IMG/VR virus record: IMGVR_UViG_3300030329_000056
Span: 1 to 36,747 of that record
Direction: 5' to 3' (one strand)
Length of the DNA: 36,747 nt
From: a virus
Below the pieces are notes generated by a model that saw only the letters and a program-made list of their open reading frames with translations, ran no database searches and was not told where the DNA came from. A program made the translations under genes and the position numbers. Positions 9,073 through 34,081 of the stretch are shown piece after piece (within the stretch, counting starts at the first letter, position 1; each line of letters starts with the position of its first letter).

Positions 9073-9232
9073 GGAACAACTTATAGATATTTCTTTAGCG
9101 TATAACAACGAAGAAATATTAGACATACTACAAATAGAAACCATTGAACTTGTGCATATCTTGCAAGAACAAATAGAAGAAAATATTCTTAAGTTTAACC
9201 TTAGACCTGTGGACTGTAACTATGACTTTTAA
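9053..9232 (+). CDS. Hypothetical acidic protein (59 aa)
   Basis: ATG at 9053 follows AAGGGGGAAG and overlaps the end of the nuclease gene; an earlier GTG start at 9032 is less likely. The product is helical and acidic: LSEEQLIDISLAYNNEEILDI, then LVHILQEQIEENI. The ending NYDF overlaps the reductase start by 11 bases. Family not recognised. Small, acidic partner proteins often sit before a larger enzyme in phage operons, but nothing in this sequence fixes a role. Confidence 0.6.
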   Translation: MQVALSEEQLIDISLAYNNEEILDILQIETIELVHILQEQIEENILKFNLRPVDCNYDF

Positions 9233-10904
9233 ATCTAACGAAAATCCAATGTTCCGATCAAAGTTTAGTGAGGACATTTTCAAACAAAAATATGCACATC
9301 AGGGGTGCTACACTTGGGCTGACTTGGCAAAGACTTTGGTAGAGGATGTTTGCAAAGGATTGTTAGCTGAGGATGAAGTGTCTGAACTCATACAGATGAT
9401 TACAGACCTTAAGTTTATTCCGGGTGGTAGGTATCTCTACTACGCAGGAAGACCTAATAAGTTTTTCAATAACTGTTTTCTGCTCAAGGCAGAGAAGGAC
9501 ACCAGAGAGGATTGGGCTAACCTAAGTTGGAAAGCAGAGTCATGTCTTATGACAGGTGGTGGCATAGGTATTGACTATTCTGTTTATAGACCGGAGGGTT
9601 CGGGGTTGAAATCTACAGGAGGAATTGCTAGTGGTCCAATTCCTAAGATGCAGATGATTAACGAGATTGGGCGTAGAGTGATGCAGGGTGGAAGTCGTAG
9701 GTCTGCTATCTATGCTAGCCTAAACTGGAAGCACAGAGATATAGAAAAGTTTCTGACCTGTAAGAATTGGTATGATATGCCAGTAGGGGATACAGGTTTT
9801 AACATAGGTCAGGTTAAGGAACAGGACTTTAACTTTACTGCCCCGATGGACATGACCAATATAAGTGTCAACTATGATACAGATTGGTTAATTAACTACT
9901 GGAAAACAGGAGATGTAGGAGATGTCTTCAGGACTAATATACATCAGGCTCTTAGAACTGCTGAACCGGGATTCAGCTTCAACTTCTTTGAAAAGGAAAA
10001 AGACACCCTTCGCAATGCTTGCACTGAGGTATGCAGTGCTGACGATTCTGATGTGTGTAATCTTGGTAGCATTAATTTGGGCAGGATTAATAATATTTCA
10101 GAGTTCTCAGACGTAGTAAATTTAGCAACCAAGTTTCTTCTATGCGGAACAAAGAAAGCAAAGCTGCCCTATGAAAAGGTATATGATGTTAGAGAAAAGA
10201 ACAGGAGGTTGGGTCTGGGACTTATGGGTATGCACGAATGGCTGGTTAAGAGAGGTAGCAAATACGAAGTTACAAAGGAACTTCATCAGTGGCTTTCTGT
10301 TTATAAGGGATGTTCTGACGCTACCAGTGCTAGCTTTTCTGATACTCTTGGTGTTTCCCGTCCTGTGGCTAATCGTGCTATTGCTCCTACAGGCAGCATT
10401 GGTATTCTTGCAGGGACTTCTACTGGTATCGAACCTATTTTTGCAGTTGCGTATAAGAGGAGGTATCTTAAGAACGGAAATAAGTGGCACTATCAATACG
10501 TTGTGGACAGTGCTGCTCAGGAAATCATAGACCTGTATGGAATCAAACCTGACAAGATTGAATCAGCATTGGACTTGGCTAGTGACTATCATAGACGCAT
10601 CAAGTTTCAAGCAGACGTTCAAGACTATGTAGATATGTCCATATCCAGCACCATTAACTTACCAGCGTGGGGGACTGAATTAAACAATGAAGATACTGTG
10701 GATAAGTTTGCTTCTACTCTTGCCAGTTATGCTCACAGGTTGCGAGGTTTCACCGTGTACCCTGACGGATGTAGAGGGGGACAACCTCTTAGCAGTGTGC
10801 CTTATAGCGAAGCTGTAGACAAGCTGGGTGAGGTGTTTGAAGAGGGCGTTGAAACCCACGACATCTGTGACATTACTGGTCACGGTGGAAGCTGTGGAGT
10901 TTAA
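9222..10904 (+). CDS. nrdJ: Adenosylcobalamin-dependent (class II) ribonucleotide reductase
   Basis: Reduces ribonucleotides to deoxyribonucleotides. The 560-residue product carries FNNCFLL with Cys85, NACTE with Asn265, Cys267 (thiyl-radical site) and Glu269, then CNLGSINL with Cys279, followed by RLGLGLMGMHEWL and APTGSIGILAGTSTGIEP. The end is GGSCGV. There is no ATP-cone at the N-terminus and no separate small subunit gene nearby, as expected for a compact class II enzyme that makes its radical from B12. Such genes are common in marine phages. With ThyX it forms a dNTP supply pair. It would depend on host cobalamin. Confidence 0.9.
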   Translation: MTFKSNENPMFRSKFSEDIFKQKYAHQGCYTWADLAKTLVEDVCKGLLAEDEVSELIQMITDLKFIPGGRYLYYAGRPNKFFNNCFLLKAEKDTREDWANLSWKAESCLMTGGGIGIDYSVYRPEGSGLKSTGGIASGPIPKMQMINEIGRRVMQGGSRRSAIYASLNWKHRDIEKFLTCKNWYDMPVGDTGFNIGQVKEQDFNFTAPMDMTNISVNYDTDWLINYWKTGDVGDVFRTNIHQALRTAEPGFSFNFFEKEKDTLRNACTEVCSADDSDVCNLGSINLGRINNISEFSDVVNLATKFLLCGTKKAKLPYEKVYDVREKNRRLGLGLMGMHEWLVKRGSKYEVTKELHQWLSVYKGCSDATSASFSDTLGVSRPVANRAIAPTGSIGILAGTSTGIEPIFAVAYKRRYLKNGNKWHYQYVVDSAAQEIIDLYGIKPDKIESALDLASDYHRRIKFQADVQDYVDMSISSTINLPAWGTELNNEDTVDKFASTLASYAHRLRGFTVYPDGCRGGQPLSSVPYSEAVDKLGEVFEEGVETHDICDITGHGGSCGV

Positions 10905-11556: not shown

Positions 11557-11991
11557 ATGCAAGACATGACTTATTCACAGATGCTAACTGTTGCCGAGCG
11601 TTCCTCGCTAGGGTTAGAAAACCTTTTTAATAATATGTGGGAAATGGCAAGTAGCCAAGTAAAAACTTCCCCCAACTTCCCTCCACATGAACTTATTAAA
11701 ACGGGGGAAAATTCTTGGCGTATTTCTATGGCACTTGCTGGCTATACAAAGGAGGATGTAACGATCGAAGTTAAGGAAAACGTCTTAACCGTATCTTCAG
11801 AAGGAGTCAACAACAAGGACAAAGGTAAGGTAATACATTCCGGTATTGCATACCGACAATTTAAAAGAGAATTTATGTTAGGAGAGTTTGTGGAAGTTAA
11901 AGACGCTTCTCTAAAAGAAGGGATATTAAAGATTGATCTAGTTCAGAAACTTCCCGATCACAAGAAACCAAAAACAATTAACATCAATTAA
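11557..11991 (+). CDS. Small heat-shock protein (IbpA/Hsp20 type)
   Basis: An ATP-independent chaperone that holds unfolding proteins. The 144-residue product has the IbpA layout: a short N-terminal arm with LENLFNNMW, then an alpha-crystallin domain from about residue 46 (HELIKTGENSWRISMALAGYTKEDVTIEVKEN is spread over the first strands), HSGIAYRQFKREF and the GILKIDL strand, and a short tail ending TININ. AGGAG lies seven bases before ATG. It stands alone between its own promoter and terminator, unlike its operon neighbours, so it may be expressed separately and strongly. Hsp20 genes are known from large marine myoviruses; here it probably aids virion protein folding. Confidence 0.92.
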   Translation: MQDMTYSQMLTVAERSSLGLENLFNNMWEMASSQVKTSPNFPPHELIKTGENSWRISMALAGYTKEDVTIEVKENVLTVSSEGVNNKDKGKVIHSGIAYRQFKREFMLGEFVEVKDASLKEGILKIDLVQKLPDHKKPKTININ

Positions 11992-12020: not shown

Positions 12021-12052
12021 GAGGAGCCTATGGTTAGCTCCTCTTTATTTTT
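12021..12052 (+). terminator. Intrinsic terminator closing the plus-strand genes
   Basis: GAGGAGC at 12021-12027 and GCTCCTC at 12037-12043 form a perfect 7-bp stem around a 9-base loop, followed by TTTATTTTT (12044-12052). It stops plus-strand transcription before it runs into the convergent late genes. The minus strand has no T-tract after the stem, so the element is one-directional. The last codons of the minus-strand gene lie against its T-tract. Confidence 0.85.
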
Positions 12053-12380
12053 GTGGGTGTGACCCGTTGTGCATGTGCATTAGTTTATCTACGTCCCGCC
12101 TGAGAGATGACACATCTGCTATGATACTGGCTGTTTCTCTAGCCCTTGCTTCCCTCTCTTTAGGGGCTAACATTCCAGACATCACCTCTAGTCTTTGAGA
12201 ATGATTCTGAATTGCAACTTCTTGGGTATCTGTTGTCCTGTCCTGTTGCCTTAACCTAGCCTCTATATCAGACAACTCGTCTATCACTGCTTGCAGCTTT
12301 GTCTTTACTATGACAAAGGCAGTTACCACGCTTACCAGCATGCCTGCCAGCGTTAGTATCATTCGTGCGTCTAGTTCCAT
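12045..12380 (-). CDS. Membrane-anchored coiled-coil protein, i-spanin-like candidate (111 aa)
   Basis: The N-terminus has one membrane span, about residues 8-25 (LTLAGMLVSVVTAFVIVK), followed by a long charged coiled coil with LQAVIDELSDIEARLRQQ and a later SLRRDVDKLM segment. This layout, N-terminal anchor plus periplasmic coiled coil, is that of an inner-membrane spanin (Rz type). Its place at the end of the late operon, after the putative transglycosylase and holin, fits a lysis role. No partner lipoprotein is seen, so the call is tentative. It overlaps the preceding gene in a TAATG junction. Confidence 0.6.
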   Translation of the reverse strand: MELDARMILTLAGMLVSVVTAFVIVKTKLQAVIDELSDIEARLRQQDRTTDTQEVAIQNHSQRLEVMSGMLAPKEREARARETASIIADVSSLRRDVDKLMHMHNGSHPQK

Positions 12381-12553
12381 TACACATCTTCTTCAAAATC
12401 AAAAGCTGTTCCACACGTTACGCATCTGAATGAGCCATCATCGTATAAAAGCCAATGTGCTGATAGCATATCCCATTGTTCGCAAACGTGGCATATGATA
12501 GGATTTGCGTCTTCTTCTTGTTCAGCGGATTCAAACTGAACTACCGTATTCAC
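12380..12553 (-). CDS. Small zinc-ribbon protein, GTG start (57 aa)
   Basis: GTG at 12553 overlaps the previous TGA; the frame is closed just upstream, so no earlier start exists. The product has CHVC at residues 21-24 and CVTC at 44-47 around a WDMLSAHWLLYDDGSF core, the spacing of a zinc ribbon, and acidic ends. AAAAGG abuts the start too closely to be ideal, so translation is probably coupled to the upstream gene. Function unknown. It lies between the metallothionein-like peptide and the coiled-coil membrane protein. Confidence 0.6.
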   Translation of the reverse strand: MNTVVQFESAEQEEDANPIICHVCEQWDMLSAHWLLYDDGSFRCVTCGTAFDFEEDV

Positions 12554-12669
12554 CTTTTATACATTTCCTTACATTTACAATTTGTGCATTTACAGTTTTT
12601 GCAGTCACCGTTGCAGTGACATTCCCTATCCTTGCAGTGACAGTCTACGCAAAAGTTATCACTTCCCAT
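12550..12669 (-). CDS. Metallothionein-like cysteine-rich peptide (39 aa)
   Basis: The product has 10 cysteines in 39 residues (7, 10, 12, 17, 19, 23, 26, 28, 31, 33), two histidines and many Lys. Four CxC pairs (10/12, 17/19, 26/28, 31/33) spaced by CxxC steps are the metallothionein hallmark. The only aromatic residues are Phe6 and Tyr37, both outside the cysteine core. AGAAGGAAG precedes the ATG at 12669. It overlaps the holin-like gene by 11 bases and the next gene by four, so it sits in a real translated array. It should bind Zn(II), Cu(I) or Cd(II) in the cytosol. There is no signal peptide. A redox or other role cannot be excluded. Confidence 0.75.
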   Translation of the reverse strand: MGSDNFCVDCHCKDRECHCNGDCKNCKCTNCKCKEMYKR

Positions 12670-12829
12670 TTTCTTCCTTCTTTTTTCTTTTGATTTCTAG
12701 GACAGCCTGATAGATACGAATCGACATCCACACCACTGTTAACAAACTTGCCAAGGCAGGTAGCCATTCAAACACACTTCCTACGGCAACTGCTCCGGCA
12801 GCTATGTCCACTGGTGTTTTACTGTCCAT
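12659..12829 (-). CDS. Putative holin, small membrane protein (56 aa)
   Basis: ATG at 12829 begins a 56-residue protein with a membrane stretch at about residues 9-38 (AAGAVAVGSVFEWLPALASLL then TVVWMSIRIY, which may form one long or two short spans) and a very basic C-terminus with KRKKKEE. The WLPxLAxLLTVVWxxIRIY pattern resembles small holins of T7-like and marine podoviruses. Its place directly after the putative cell-wall hydrolase supports the call. It would pore the inner membrane at lysis. Another holin candidate lies at 33674-34081. Confidence 0.7.
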   Translation of the reverse strand: MDSKTPVDIAAGAVAVGSVFEWLPALASLLTVVWMSIRIYQAVLEIKRKKKEENGK

Positions 12830-13532
12830 TTTCTAAACTCCGTTTGTATCTTTCATGGTTTGCGTTGAAAACCCTTATCCTGTCTTCCCTATCTTTTTTG
12901 TTCCCTTGCCACCAGTTTTCTAGCCAAAAATCTAATATACTTTGTTTACCAGAAAATACCTTAGACATATCTGCATCTGGGTGCTCTATTAAATCATAGA
13001 CACCAAGAGCCATTTGCTGATCGCCAGTTAATGATGTAGCAATGTCCTTTTCTCTATTTATACTCTTTAACCATTCTGGCTGCGGTAAATTTTTTCTTTC
13101 TAGATAATTTCTAGCTCTTTGCACCGCTGTTTTAAATCTTTCTCTTTCAAACTGTAGTAATCCTCTTCCCAGATTTCTATTTTTCTCAGTCCCTTTTTGT
13201 ATCATATTTGGATTATAGGTTCCACCAGATTCGTGAAATGCCATTGGTTTAATTATATTGTTAATTATAAAAGAAGAATCGATCCCTTTCTCTTTACCCG
13301 CCAAAGCTGCTGCCCTTTCTGTTTCGGTAAGGTCTTTCAAATTAAATGACGGTTTAGGATCAAAAAAATCAAGAACATCTAAGGCTTCATCCAGTAAGCC
13401 TACACTAGACAAACTACGTTTTATTAGAGGTTTTATTTCATCTAATAATCCTACCACTTGAACAGGGTTTTGTTCACGTTTTTGCTGCTGTATTGCTTTA
13501 GCAGCACCTAAAGATTGTCCAAAAGCTACCAT
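12819..13532 (-). CDS. Lytic transglycosylase-like cell-wall hydrolase (237 aa)
   Basis: The start is placed at ATG 13532, next to the previous stop, with GGAAAG about ten bases upstream. An in-frame ATG at 13604 would add a hydrophobic stretch that overlaps the end of the preceding gene and is probably false. The C-terminal half has the virion-transglycosylase layout: FHESGG with the candidate catalytic Glu101, NLGRGLLQFE, TAVQRARNYLE, GDQQMALGVYDLIEHPDAD and DFWLENWWQG. It would cut peptidoglycan, either during DNA entry or, given the adjacent holin, at lysis. The N-terminal third is helical and not recognised. Confidence 0.75.
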   Translation of the reverse strand: MVAFGQSLGAAKAIQQQKREQNPVQVVGLLDEIKPLIKRSLSSVGLLDEALDVLDFFDPKPSFNLKDLTETERAAALAGKEKGIDSSFIINNIIKPMAFHESGGTYNPNMIQKGTEKNRNLGRGLLQFERERFKTAVQRARNYLERKNLPQPEWLKSINREKDIATSLTGDQQMALGVYDLIEHPDADMSKVFSGKQSILDFWLENWWQGNKKDREDRIRVFNANHERYKRSLENGQ

Positions 13533-13533
13533 A

Positions 13534-14085
13534 TTAAAAGTTCTTTCCAACCCTGAAACCAAGGTTCCATATATTACCAGTGCGATTAGTATTGTTCCAA
13601 TCATATCCTGCGTTTACGCTTCCTGTAAATCCTCCCGGCAGTTGAAACTCTCTAGAAGCAGAGACACCTTGAGGGTTTACGTTTAATATACCACCACTGT
13701 CCAGAACTGCCCTAAAATATGGATTATTTATTACACTATTTCTGTTGACAGTAGTTCCTGCTTCTATATTACCATAGGGAATGTCCATATTTAACTTTAC
13801 ATCAGCGGAGGAGGACATAGGGTCTAGAGGCTTAATATTAGGGTCTATGGAAACTTGCTCAGGCAAGGCTGATTCAATTTCTGTAAAAGCAGGTTTTGCA
13901 AAATTTAGCACAGGGTTTACAACAGTGTCTTTAATGTCCTGTATATTTTCTTTCCCTACTGCTGCTGCTGCACTCCCCAGACCTAGTTTTAAACCCTCTC
14001 CCTTAAGCCTGTCGAGTTCAGCACCTCCCCCTGCTTCTTCAAATTTATTTTCAATATTTTTAACAACTTTAAATATATCAACCAT
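13534..14085 (-). CDS. Virion or ejection protein with beta-barrel-like C-terminus (183 aa)
   Basis: ATG at 14085 follows GGGGAA and the previous stop; an in-frame start at 14109 would overlap the preceding gene. Residues 1-60 are helical and Ala/Gly-rich. The C-terminus, LPGGFTGSVNAGYDW and IWNLGFRVGKNF, alternates polar and non-polar residues and ends in Phe, which resembles the last strands and the terminal aromatic signal of outer-membrane beta barrels. With the large protein upstream it may form part of the channel that DNA passes through at infection. The family is not recognised; the barrel idea is from pattern only. Confidence 0.55.
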   Translation of the reverse strand: MVDIFKVVKNIENKFEEAGGGAELDRLKGEGLKLGLGSAAAAVGKENIQDIKDTVVNPVLNFAKPAFTEIESALPEQVSIDPNIKPLDPMSSSADVKLNMDIPYGNIEAGTTVNRNSVINNPYFRAVLDSGGILNVNPQGVSASREFQLPGGFTGSVNAGYDWNNTNRTGNIWNLGFRVGKNF

Positions 14086-17261: not shown

Positions 17262-18539
17262 TTATTTTACCAACTCTCGTTTAAAAGTAAATTTGCCCTG
17301 ACTTGCGTCTGTATCTGATAAGATTGATTCCACCATTCGCTCGCCACCCGGCTGTGATCTTATTATAGCTGCGGCATCAAAAGCACGAGCTTGGATATTT
17401 TTCATTAGATTCTCAAACTGTTGTTGTACCGCTGCCTCGCTTTTAAATAAACCGGGGGCAGAAACCATTTTATCCAAAAATTGCTTAATTTCCTGTCTAC
17501 TAGCCGAGTCCCCGAACATTCCTGACGCAGCTATGTTTGCTTTAATCAGTGCAACTATCTCTTTTATCTGACTTTTACCTGCTGCTTCGTTACCAAGTCC
17601 TATAAAAGTTGCAATATTTTTCAACCCACCTACTAATCCACCCCATCCACCTTCTGTAGTGCTCTCCAACATAAGAGTTTTCATTTTTTGTAAATACGGA
17701 TTTATATTTTTAGGTAATAGCATTGTATTAACTAGATCAACTGACTCGGCAGTAATTCCCGGAGGTTTTACTGGCTTAATTCCGGCTATTACTTTTGCAA
17801 GCTCGTTCTGTCTTTTAAGCTCCTCCTGAGCAGCAGCAGCTTCAGCAGCATCAACTTGCTGACTACTAACTGCAAATGCAGTAGCAGGAGTTCCCTGATA
17901 AGGATACGCCATCTCTGCTGCTGGCATACCTGCCATAATCTTAAACAACCTGCTCCAATCAAATCCCTTAGCTATGCCCTGTTCAGACGGAGTGCCGTTG
18001 CCACTGATTTTATCTATAGCATTGTTGGCTTCTGCAACCGCAAGATCATCTGTAGATAGCTGTTTTTTTCCTGTGAGCGTTGGTAATACATTGGTGTTAT
18101 ACCAATCAGCAAAAACCCTAACTCTTTCTTCCGCTCGATTTCTTTCTTTTATTACAAAAGGACTAAGAGAACCTTCTAAAAAACCTTCTGGCAAAGATTC
18201 ACCCGGAAAAAGTTCCTTAAATTTGTTAACAGCAAAGTTTGGGTCATCCTCATATCCCCTAGCAGCTAGCAAACTTTGTGCAGTGTTGATTCGTATAGCA
18301 TACCCTTGATCTATAGATGCGTCCTGCTCGTTGTATAAACCTTCATTCAGAAGTCGTTGTCTATAACTTACTGGCATAACTTGCTCTGTCCCAGAGTCGC
18401 TCATCTTTGTTACATAGCTTGGATTAGGTTTTTCTTCAAAAGTCCAAGCGTCATATATAGTGGATTTCGCAGAAGAAGGATCGTTTCTCTCAACAATCTG
18501 TTTAATTAAACCTGTGTCTACTACTGGAAGAACTGCCAT
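17262..18539 (-). CDS. Probable internal virion protein (425 aa)
   Basis: A soluble helical protein beginning MAVLPVVDTGLIKQIVE, with SYRQRLLNEGLYNEQDASID and a long Gln/Ala-rich middle (AAEAAAAQEELKRQNELAKV). The C-terminal half is helical with FMxKMxSAPGLFKSEAAVQQQFENL-type text. No catalytic motif. It lies directly before the 1057-residue ejection protein and after two other unassigned virion genes, so it is probably one of the set ejected with DNA, like T7 gp14-gp16. It ends one base before the next start. Family not recognised. Confidence 0.55.
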   Translation of the reverse strand: MAVLPVVDTGLIKQIVERNDPSSAKSTIYDAWTFEEKPNPSYVTKMSDSGTEQVMPVSYRQRLLNEGLYNEQDASIDQGYAIRINTAQSLLAARGYEDDPNFAVNKFKELFPGESLPEGFLEGSLSPFVIKERNRAEERVRVFADWYNTNVLPTLTGKKQLSTDDLAVAEANNAIDKISGNGTPSEQGIAKGFDWSRLFKIMAGMPAAEMAYPYQGTPATAFAVSSQQVDAAEAAAAQEELKRQNELAKVIAGIKPVKPPGITAESVDLVNTMLLPKNINPYLQKMKTLMLESTTEGGWGGLVGGLKNIATFIGLGNEAAGKSQIKEIVALIKANIAASGMFGDSASRQEIKQFLDKMVSAPGLFKSEAAVQQQFENLMKNIQARAFDAAAIIRSQPGGERMVESILSDTDASQGKFTFKRELVK

Positions 18540-31655: not shown

Positions 31656-33674
31656 TTATGCTTTAATGTTTTTGTCAGAGTTCATTTCAAAACCTAGCTC
31701 AATACCCTTGAGCTTCAGTTCTTCTTGCTTGATTGCCATTTCGTGTTCGGTTTCTATACGTTCTAGTTCTAACTTAGCTGCTTTAATTTCTAGCTCCTTG
31801 GCTTTTACCTGAGCTTCTAATTGAGTTGCCTGAGCAATAGTCATCTGAGCTTGGGCTTGAGCCTGTGCTAATTGTTCCTGTGCAGACGGAGGAGGTGGTT
31901 CAGTAGGAGGAGAGGATACAAACTTGTCTACATTTTTAATGTTCATCTCGTCTGCTACTTCACGCATTAGATTATATACGTTGTCAGGCTGAATAATGCC
32001 CTGAGTTTGCTGACCGACCTTTTCCATTAGCATAGCATAATTATTTAGATTTTGTAGCCTAATGTCCTGATCTCCGTATCCAATGCCTACCTCAATGTCT
32101 ACATCTAGGTCTTCTCTCCAACTAGAAGGGTCTATTGGAAAATATGTGTTATTAAGTCTGACAAGTTTTTGCCTGTCTTCGTATCGTTGCACTAAGTTAT
32201 AAATAGATTTAAAGATATTGCGAACACCCGTATCTGCAAAAACTCTGGCTATAAGTTCTAGCCTACCCTGAGCATTTGTCAACGCTGCGTTGGCTGCACC
32301 TTGCGTAACATGCGATTTTAAAACGTCTGCACTAAGACCCTGTGTTTGAGGGTTTACTCCGGTGCGTCCAGATTTAATATCTTCCCAATACTGCAACATG
32401 CGGAAAGCCTCTGGTTGCAGTGCTGGCGTTTGAATAGGCTGGAGAGCATTTGGACTCCGAGTCCTTACAATACCTCCCGGTCTATTAGTAAGAAGATCGT
32501 CTACATTAACCTGACCTTCTACAATCTGAAATCTTCCGTTATTAGCCAGATACATATTATCTAGCAAGTTACGGGTCAGTGTTGACCTGATTAGCTGTAT
32601 ATCCTCTACAGTTTCTGCAACGCTAAGACCGTAAAACTTATGCGGAATAGGTATGGGACATACTGTGCTAAAGGGTATATAGTCAATAGGTTCTAAATCT
32701 AAAATTTCTGAACCACTGTGACAAACTTTGTGAAGAACACTTACTCCTGAACCGTCTATATCTAGTTTAATATAGGACTCGTTAATCTCCACCATTACTT
32801 CTGAATCTGCACTAGCCTGATTAGGGTATACGTCTGTGCTATCGTATGAGTGGCGAGCCATGTATTCTTGGCTAGTTGTAATAGCGTCTGCTTCTGAGTT
32901 ATATCCGGGCAGCGACTCTACCAAGTCAGTATCATACCCCATTTTAATTAGATCGCTTTTAGATTTATGCGACCTGTGACAGATAAACCTAGCTTCTTCT
33001 AAAGTTTTAGCACCCCTGTTAATGAGAAACTCTTCCGGAGGCACGTTTTCAATAGTGACTTTTCCAGAGTAATCTGTGCGAGCAAATACCGCATCGTGAT
33101 ATATTTCCTCGATTTCCTCCGCTTGTCCTGTTTCGGGGTTTAAAATTTCCCGTATTGTAGACACTTGTTCGTGTTCTATAACTTCCAAGTCTTCGTCTTG
33201 GCTAAGAACACTGAACTCCTGCTCTGTTAGATTTTGATAGCTTTCGCTAGTTGTTTTTTCTACCTCTTCCCAATAGTGCTTAACAACGCCTACCTTTTGC
33301 ATAAGAGCGTCTAGGAACATATTATATAAAATCATAAAACCATTGTTCTGTTTGTAGAACACATGATTTATATACTTAGTAGCCTGTTCTGCAACTTCTT
33401 CATCTTCTGGACTTTCGGGAACAAACCTTACTACATTGTCTCCACCTGTGAAGATACGCATAAGACTAGGCATCATCCACATTAGCGTGTCTTGTACGTC
33501 TGTAACTACAACCTGTGACCGGCCATCTTCCTCGTTGCCGAAAGGCTCGCCATAGAAATATTCCATGGCCTTTGCTTGCTGAGAACTAATCTCAGAATCT
33601 AGATAGTCAGCACTGCCGTTTATTTCTCCCTCTACAAGGGAAATAATTTCTTGGTCGTCTAATTCTCTAGCCAT
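31656..33674 (-). CDS. Portal protein (672 aa)
   Basis: The dodecameric channel through which DNA is packed and ejected. The N-terminal part, SSQQAKAMEYFYGEPFGNEE and RSQVVVTDVQDTLMWMMPSL, is a well-known portal start in marine podoviruses. Further on, YIPFSTVCPIPIPHKFYGLS then ETVEDIQLIRSTLTRNLLDN belong to the core. The last 80 residues are a Gln/Ala/Glu coiled coil, AQEQLAQAQAQAQMTIAQAT, that may be the barrel or crown region. It follows the terminase genes and a holin-like gene and comes before the fibre and head genes. It starts one base after the preceding gene ends. Confidence 0.9.
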   Translation of the reverse strand: MARELDDQEIISLVEGEINGSADYLDSEISSQQAKAMEYFYGEPFGNEEDGRSQVVVTDVQDTLMWMMPSLMRIFTGGDNVVRFVPESPEDEEVAEQATKYINHVFYKQNNGFMILYNMFLDALMQKVGVVKHYWEEVEKTTSESYQNLTEQEFSVLSQDEDLEVIEHEQVSTIREILNPETGQAEEIEEIYHDAVFARTDYSGKVTIENVPPEEFLINRGAKTLEEARFICHRSHKSKSDLIKMGYDTDLVESLPGYNSEADAITTSQEYMARHSYDSTDVYPNQASADSEVMVEINESYIKLDIDGSGVSVLHKVCHSGSEILDLEPIDYIPFSTVCPIPIPHKFYGLSVAETVEDIQLIRSTLTRNLLDNMYLANNGRFQIVEGQVNVDDLLTNRPGGIVRTRSPNALQPIQTPALQPEAFRMLQYWEDIKSGRTGVNPQTQGLSADVLKSHVTQGAANAALTNAQGRLELIARVFADTGVRNIFKSIYNLVQRYEDRQKLVRLNNTYFPIDPSSWREDLDVDIEVGIGYGDQDIRLQNLNNYAMLMEKVGQQTQGIIQPDNVYNLMREVADEMNIKNVDKFVSSPPTEPPPPSAQEQLAQAQAQAQMTIAQATQLEAQVKAKELEIKAAKLELERIETEHEMAIKQEELKLKGIELGFEMNSDKNIKA

Positions 33675-34081
33675 TATTTACTGACTCCTTTGAACTTCTC
33701 GAATGTACGAAGACCACCAAGACCAAGCATACCGAGTAATACAGGCATCATCTGACTCATATCAAGAGATGGTAAATCTATAAGGTGTCCTGTTTGAGCT
33801 AATATAAACTGTAAAATAGGCGTTCCTACATACGTCCAAGCAAGGGCAATTCCGCATGTCCAACCGATAAATGGCCGCCAACCAGCGATAAAAATATTTC
33901 TCGACTTAGCTTCTTCCCGGTTAATAGCCATCTGAGCTAGATCAACCTTAGCCAAGTGTGAAGCAAGCTCTGCTTCTATTTTACGCTCTGCCTTTGCACG
34001 TTCCTCTTTATCTTCAGGTAGAAACCTACCTATAATATCGGTAACGGCTGGCAGTATAGATGGCAGCAGTGCTTGAAGCAT
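33674..34081 (-). CDS. GTA-type 3-TM holin-like protein (135 aa)
   Basis: Shows the holin (GTA_holin_3TM, PF11351-type) pattern: a helical head (LLPSILPAVTDIIGRFLPED), a charged coiled coil (KEERAKAERKIEAELASHLA), then RNIFIAGWRPFIGWTCGIAL and the hydrophobic ALAWTYVGTPILQFILA, and near the end MPVLLGMLGLGGLRTFEKF. In related phages this gene also sits near the terminase rather than in the lysis cassette. It overlaps the portal start by one base. Holin or another membrane role remains open, as a smaller holin lies at 12659. Confidence 0.8.
   Translation of the reverse strand: MLQALLPSILPAVTDIIGRFLPEDKEERAKAERKIEAELASHLAKVDLAQMAINREEAKSRNIFIAGWRPFIGWTCGIALAWTYVGTPILQFILAQTGHLIDLPSLDMSQMMPVLLGMLGLGGLRTFEKFKGVSK

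Follow-up and report, generated by a model that had tools for sequence, protein, structure and literature searches.

We found that a stretch of viral DNA of 36,747 nucleotides (hereafter the window), part of a 38,021-base virus record, carries a real gene under selection for a 39-residue, cysteine-rich, metallothionein-like peptide that appears to be a divergent member of a family carried by viruses. Judging by the pattern of its candidate ligands, the peptide very probably binds metal, and it is rather likely to hold several metals in a cluster. The whole reading, in which it buffers metal autonomously late in infection, has in our estimate a probability of about 0.5.

Sequence, orthologs and selection all support the gene, which lies on the minus strand at positions 12550..12669 of the window. 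Its ATG start codon at 12669 is preceded at 5 nt by a ribosome-binding site (AAGGA, 12675..12679, minus strand) that falls within the 3′ end of the upstream gene. The translated peptide, MGSDNFCVDCHCKDRECHCNGDCKNCKCTNCKCKEMYKR, contains ten cysteines (residues 7, 10, 12, 17, 19, 23, 26, 28, 31 and 33; 25.6% of the sequence), which form four CxC pairs (10/12, 17/19, 26/28 and 31/33), and two histidines (His11 and His18), and its sequence shows no obvious signal or transmembrane segment. The gene overlaps the upstream gene, encoding 56 residues, by 11 nt and the downstream gene, encoding 57 residues, by 4 nt. In all these respects, size, cysteine and histidine content, CxC pairs and overlap with both neighbours, the first-pass annotation had described it correctly. 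Among the open reading frames of the window with at least 30 residues this one has the highest share of cysteine (25.6% vs. 16.9% for the next), and none of the 34,759 ORFs in 100 third-order Markov copies of the window combined at least 20% cysteine with at least three CxC pairs.

A tblastn search with the 39-residue peptide gave no match, probably owing to the low-complexity filter, and its relatives were found by means of degenerate DNA patterns. The pattern CVDCxC...CHC matched the loci L212 and L321-L325, in which the class II ribonucleotide reductase (RNR) is 82-83% and the oxygenase 59% identical to those of the window; on the contigs that are long enough, the DNA polymerase is 68-76% and the transmembrane (TM)-coiled-coil protein 29-30% identical. 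In all of them the peptide lies, as in the window, at the convergent end of the late operon, although loci picked by pattern are silent on how often the gene is absent. A further version of the peptide was identified in L156, L315, L317 and L318, for which synteny with the window was not detected. Every distinct version (window, L212/L325, L321, L322-324 and the L156 type) has exactly ten cysteines in the same order. Between the window and L212 synonymous differences are saturated (17 at 16.7 sites), while non-synonymous differences amount to 27 at 94 sites (0.29 per site); all ten cysteines are kept, yet five of the ten cysteine codons differ silently. The first-pass annotation had let its proposal stand or fall with a homologue conserved in related phages, and these relatives, with their ten of ten cysteines, provide one. 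The antisense ORFs that overlap the gene might speak for a chance ORF, but with no comparable ORF in the randomized copies, purifying selection and syntenic orthologs that explanation is negligible in probability; conservation in the orthologs already refutes it and we rejected it.

Metallothioneins in the broad sense are peptides of fewer than about 100 residues with more than 15-20% cysteine, several CxC pairs and cysteines kept under selection. The window peptide has 39 residues, 25.6% cysteine, four such pairs and ten of ten cysteines kept against saturated synonymous sites; like its orthologs, it is viral and encoded among late genes, next to candidate lysis genes.

Next, we considered the genomic setting, naming genes without a cited family match from a reading of their translations. 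Replication genes (primase/helicase-like, ThyX-like, DNA polymerase A, class II RNR-like at 9222-10904, a 2OG-Fe(II) oxygenase and HSP20) read rightward in the left part of the window, and in the right part the genes for packaging and structure and the candidate lysis genes read leftward; the two sets meet at ~12.0 kb. The convergent neighbour at this point, the HSP20 small heat-shock protein (11557..11991, plus strand; Pfam 6.1e-18), found no relatives when used as a search anchor. The leftward operon ends, in order, with five genes on the minus strand: a 261-residue candidate peptidoglycan hydrolase with an N-terminal hydrophobic anchor (12819..13604; weak Phage_lysozyme2 match, E 0.13), a 56-residue holin-like protein with one hydrophobic segment and a lysine-rich tail (12659..12829; weak PHROG holin match, E 0.022), the 39-residue peptide, a 57-residue zinc-ribbon-like protein with two CxxC motifs and a GTG start (12380..12553; weak zinc-ribbon match, E 0.013) and, as the last gene of the late operon, a 111-residue Rz- or holin-like protein with an N-terminal hydrophobic helix and a probable coiled coil (12045..12380). 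The latter assignment relies on weak matches and on the relatives' homologs, which in L321-L325 are 29-30% identical (E about 1e-18). The zinc-ribbon-like gene was not seen in the relatives examined; its overlap with the peptide gene places two candidate metal-binding proteins side by side.

The late-operon position put forward in the first-pass annotation was thus borne out, and its lysis cassette has support, though not proof, in the window genome itself. Matches close to the peptide gene are weak (holins, E 0.022 and 0.0066; Rz-like spanins, E 0.015), and the only confidently recognised holin of the genome, of the GTA_holin_3TM type (33674..34081, minus strand; Pfam PF11351, 2.8e-19; phrog_3427, 4.3e-30), lies far away. 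In the relatives, the slot of the lysin holds a clear hydrolase: in L325 a Pesticin-type muramidase (6e-37), after which come, in this order, a TM-coiled-coil gene, a 146-residue membrane protein and the peptide, and in L323, with the same gene order, a Phage_lysozyme2 enzyme (2e-6). In L002, whose tail protein is 98% identical, the N-terminal anchor of the window lysin is kept and the catalytic part is a different one, SLT-like at E 0.0069 (below the cut-off). This contig (L002/L136), the closest one by tail protein, lacks the peptide position because it stops 41 nt past the lysin gene. Since the hydrolase differs among L325, L323, L002 and the window, the region is predicted to be a cassette with an exchangeable peptidoglycan hydrolase, and the clear, curated-level hydrolases in this slot of the relatives make the lysis setting sound. 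The domain swap itself is visible between 12819-13604 of the window and 3001-3783 of L002, which share an anchor of ~73 residues and differ in the catalytic part.

To look for more distant relatives we used the patterns CKCxxCKCKxxY and CHC-gap-CxCxxCKC, and found, in viral contigs and isolates of SAR11 phages, at least about 105 distinct short ORFs that have a pattern in common. The supposition of the first-pass annotation that peptides of this sort are very rare in phages is thus not supported. Their common frame is C-x2-C-x-[C/H]-x-C-H-C ... (LHxDxYG) ... C-x-C-x2-C-K-C, and the core consensus of 95 sequences among the matches listed reads K-C-K-x-C-x-[C/H]-x-C-H-C-x5-L-H-x-D-x-Y-G-x-C-x-C-x2-C-K-C, where x5 is approximate as the loop varies. 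In the core sequences among the matches listed, eight cysteines and one histidine are invariant or nearly so, a second histidine is 94% conserved, family position 7 is Cys in 61, His in 50 and Asn in 4, and each sequence has 8 or 9 cysteines and mostly 2-5 histidines. The median dN/dS was 0.31 over 743 comparable pairs among the matches listed, which are not independent of each other. The cultured carriers are SAR11 phages: HTVC106P (gp36, QGZ18079), Gjalp (gp42, QLF88234), Eyrgjafa (gp29, QLF88175) and HTVC041P. The HTVC041P member is unannotated in the deposited genome (L133 4983-5153; about 17805-17975 of the record).

When 84,980 bacterial and archaeal species genomes (257 billion bases) were searched with the CHC-gap-CxCxxCKC pattern, 47 stretches were returned, and on inspection none was of the family. 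Within the reach of this pattern, which admits only one of the two codons at one cysteine, the family is therefore confined to viruses. No match to the family was found in Pfam, PHROGs or NCBIfam, and at E<=1 neither Pfam nor NCBIfam gave anything for the window peptide or its relatives. Two contigs have paired members (L143, 3386-3556 and 5167-5319; L172, 10010-10207 and 10192-10374), which suggests duplication.

The window peptide has every residue of the frame C-x2-C ... C-H-C ... C-x-C-x2-C-K-C. When it was aligned with 49 members among the matches listed, it broke none of the invariant columns of the 50 sequences (C7, C10, C17, H18, C19, C26, C28, C31 and C33). Against a profile built without the window subfamily it scored 41.0 bits, while none of 300 full shuffles exceeded 34.2; when the cysteines were kept in place, 10 of 300 shuffles scored as high as the peptide, and other cysteine-rich viral peptides score too. 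Sequence comparison showed that the LHxDxYG loop is absent from the window peptide and its ten-cysteine subfamily; where it is lost in this way, extra cysteine is present and the ligand frame persists. Because of the frame, the intermediates (L031, L239 and L212) and the position, we consider the window peptide a probable divergent member on a separate branch, and it may have converged with other cysteine-rich peptides.

Conservation in the family is nearly confined to cysteine and histidine, and the two exchange at one position, which argues for metal coordination and not for disulfides; the conserved cysteines would then act as metal ligands. A disulfide-rich peptide that acts outside the cell after lysis, like a bacteriocin or a defensin, would agree with the small size, the many cysteines, the basic tail and the adjoining lysis genes, but there is no secretion signal, and the CxC pairs and the Cys/His exchange speak against it. 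In PDB sequence searches, no solved disulfide-rich peptide was better than E 1 with the window peptide, and with a main-family sequence the best hit had E 0.16 and nothing was convincing. We regard this explanation as very unlikely. Somewhat more plausible, though still improbable, is a redox or thiol buffer or sacrificial reductant of the late infected cell, for which metal binding would be secondary. The peptide is cysteine-rich and the class II RNR-like enzyme and the small heat-shock protein make up a stress-type neighbourhood; on the other hand, a thiol buffer needs neither an invariant histidine nor a Cys/His exchange, and no oxidoreductase family match was found in Pfam or NCBIfam. AlphaFold, which carries no metal, gave models of low confidence (pLDDT 61.6 and 60.4), and these are uninformative because the peptide would be organised by metal.

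We then compared the positions of the family members. Among the matches listed three settings recur, with lysis-block, capsid or DNA-polymerase-like neighbours: at least 10 members precede the capsid gene of Fussvirus/Stopavirus-like phages by ~130 bp, and many others lie downstream of a DNA-polymerase-like gene, at a distance of roughly 0.5-1.4 kb. A lysis-block gene was found within 300 bp of 43 of 105 members among the matches listed, whereas random positions in the same loci gave a mean of 15.4 and a maximum of 28 in 1000 draws. If only holin or endolysin is counted, the figures are 23 members among the matches listed vs. 8.2 at random. In the lysis-block counts contigs are treated as independent, with relatedness uncorrected, and the reference genes phrog_20984, phrog_24646 and phrog_2524 are of 'unknown function'.

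This over-representation could mean a job specific to lysis, and the main rival to an autonomous metal buffer is accordingly a structural zinc module that docks on the holin-like or TM-coiled-coil protein and tunes the timing of lysis, perhaps by sensing metal or redox state. The 11-nt overlap of the start of the peptide with the preceding membrane-protein gene fits such a module, as it is the same in the window, L321 and L323, where the membrane proteins differ in length. So does HTVC106P, where an amphipathic helix is joined to the Cys domain: homologs of this helix that lack the domain, or have a short tail of Cys instead, adjoin lysis genes in other SAR11 phages. In HTVC021P a helix of this type ends in a short CKCKDKGKCQCK, and in HTVC201P, HTVC119P and others it terminates in lysines. 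In addition, the conserved LHxDxYG loop of the main family, with its Y and G, is more suggestive of a specific folded module than of a sponge. Against a lysis module stand the loss of this loop in the window lineage, the members before capsid genes or downstream of DNA-polymerase-like genes and the several reference lysis-block genes without a proven role in lysis; as members also occupy non-lysis positions, the function need not be lysis-specific. Overall, we hold the lysis module to be possible but clearly less likely than the buffer.

Near their lysis genes, SAR11 phages have in common a small amphipathic-helix peptide (MIDKI..FFGWLDKF; L307 2501-2623, L309 2501-2620, L310 2501-2620, L137 11152-11349), whose tails are exchangeable: lysine-rich, a short Cys stretch or the full Cys domain.

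In the reading that we favour, autonomous metal buffering, the product would be a cytosolic, metallothionein-like peptide with a metal cluster and would belong to a family specific to viruses; its ten cysteines and the conserved histidine (11 ligands) probably wrap three to four Zn(II)/Cd(II) or a larger number of Cu(I). The peptide would be translated from the late operon, presumably late in infection and in coupling with the lysis-block membrane protein, so that it would accumulate just before lysis. Most likely it works alone as a metal (and thiol) buffer, which may protect late viral processes from Zn/Cu that is released or in excess. The recurrence of members at several genome positions suits such an autonomous function. 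The candidate roles named in the first-pass annotation were protection of virion assembly, stripping of zinc and retention of metals.

Of the metallothionein pattern invoked in the first-pass annotation, what holds is a pattern of metal ligands; assignment to a known metallothionein family does not, given the empty searches of Pfam, NCBIfam and PHROGs. Cyanobacterial SmtA has a Zn4Cys9His2 cluster (11 ligands). SmtA and BmtA resemble the window peptide in being short and cytosolic, with a CxCxxCxC motif and about 11 Cys/His ligands. BmtA, with which it also has the marine setting in common, is expected to bind as many as four zinc ions (PMC9337993). Unlike both, peptides of the window type are carried, as far as seen here, only by viruses; the order of motifs differs and the zinc-finger-like segment of SmtA is missing. 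We rejected membership of the SmtA family: the PF02069 (Metallothio_Pro) profile of Pfam gave no match to the window peptide at E<1, while the SmtA control matched it at 1.5e-20. With eukaryotic metallothioneins (vertebrate and yeast CUP1 types) the peptide shares abundant cysteine, CxC pairs and a Cys core devoid of aromatic residues; it differs in its conserved histidine and matched no Pfam metallothionein family. Vertebrate metallothioneins are also longer than 39 residues. Small zinc-ribbon and zinc-finger proteins of phages, such as the 57-residue neighbour, are likewise Cys-rich zinc-binding candidates of similar size, but zinc ribbons use paired CxxC for one zinc and the peptide has CxC pairs and 11 candidate ligands, so that this identity was rejected too. 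The closest likeness is with the main viral family (HTVC106P gp36, Gjalp gp42, Eyrgjafa gp29, HTVC041P), which has the same C-x2-C ... CHC ... CxCxxCKC frame in marine phages, often among late genes. That family has eight invariant cysteines, one Cys/His site, a second conserved histidine and LHxDxYG, whereas the window subfamily has ten cysteines and no such loop.

Metallothionein-like peptides in general are already known; what is apparently new is that a family of them is specific to viruses, recurs in marine phages and has no name in Pfam, PHROGs and NCBIfam. In the open literature, with subscription journals mostly uncovered, we found no paper on phage metallothioneins or on this viral family. 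Annotation easily misses the family, since its members are very short, of low complexity and without a name. If they do bind metal, some of the commonest viruses of the ocean make metallothionein-like peptides of their own, in waters where zinc and copper may be in short supply or at toxic levels, and phage lysis would be tied to the release of trace metals. SAR11 bacteria are abundant, and the cultured isolates HTVC106P, Gjalp, Eyrgjafa and HTVC041P make the idea testable. More speculatively, marine phages, including those of SAR11, might share a dedicated, virus-born metal-cluster module, free or fused to membrane-active lysis peptides, that couples the zinc/copper state of the cell to lysis or late assembly; such a metal-controlled regulator of lysis or late infection, unlike any described, is doubtful but conceivable.

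Finally, other viral Cys-rich ORFs are more classically metallothionein-like, with CKCxxCKCxxC repeats (L039 484-690, L091 1262-1618, L117 2542-2835, L028 217-297 and L082 2210-2293); L091 has two blocks of this type and L117 has one, behind an unrelated N-terminal segment. A protein of a Clostridia MAG (L295 336-980) has a Cys/His-rich N-terminal extension (CKCEDKECHC...CECKDCKC), and its C-terminal part resembles GrpE on reading of the translation.
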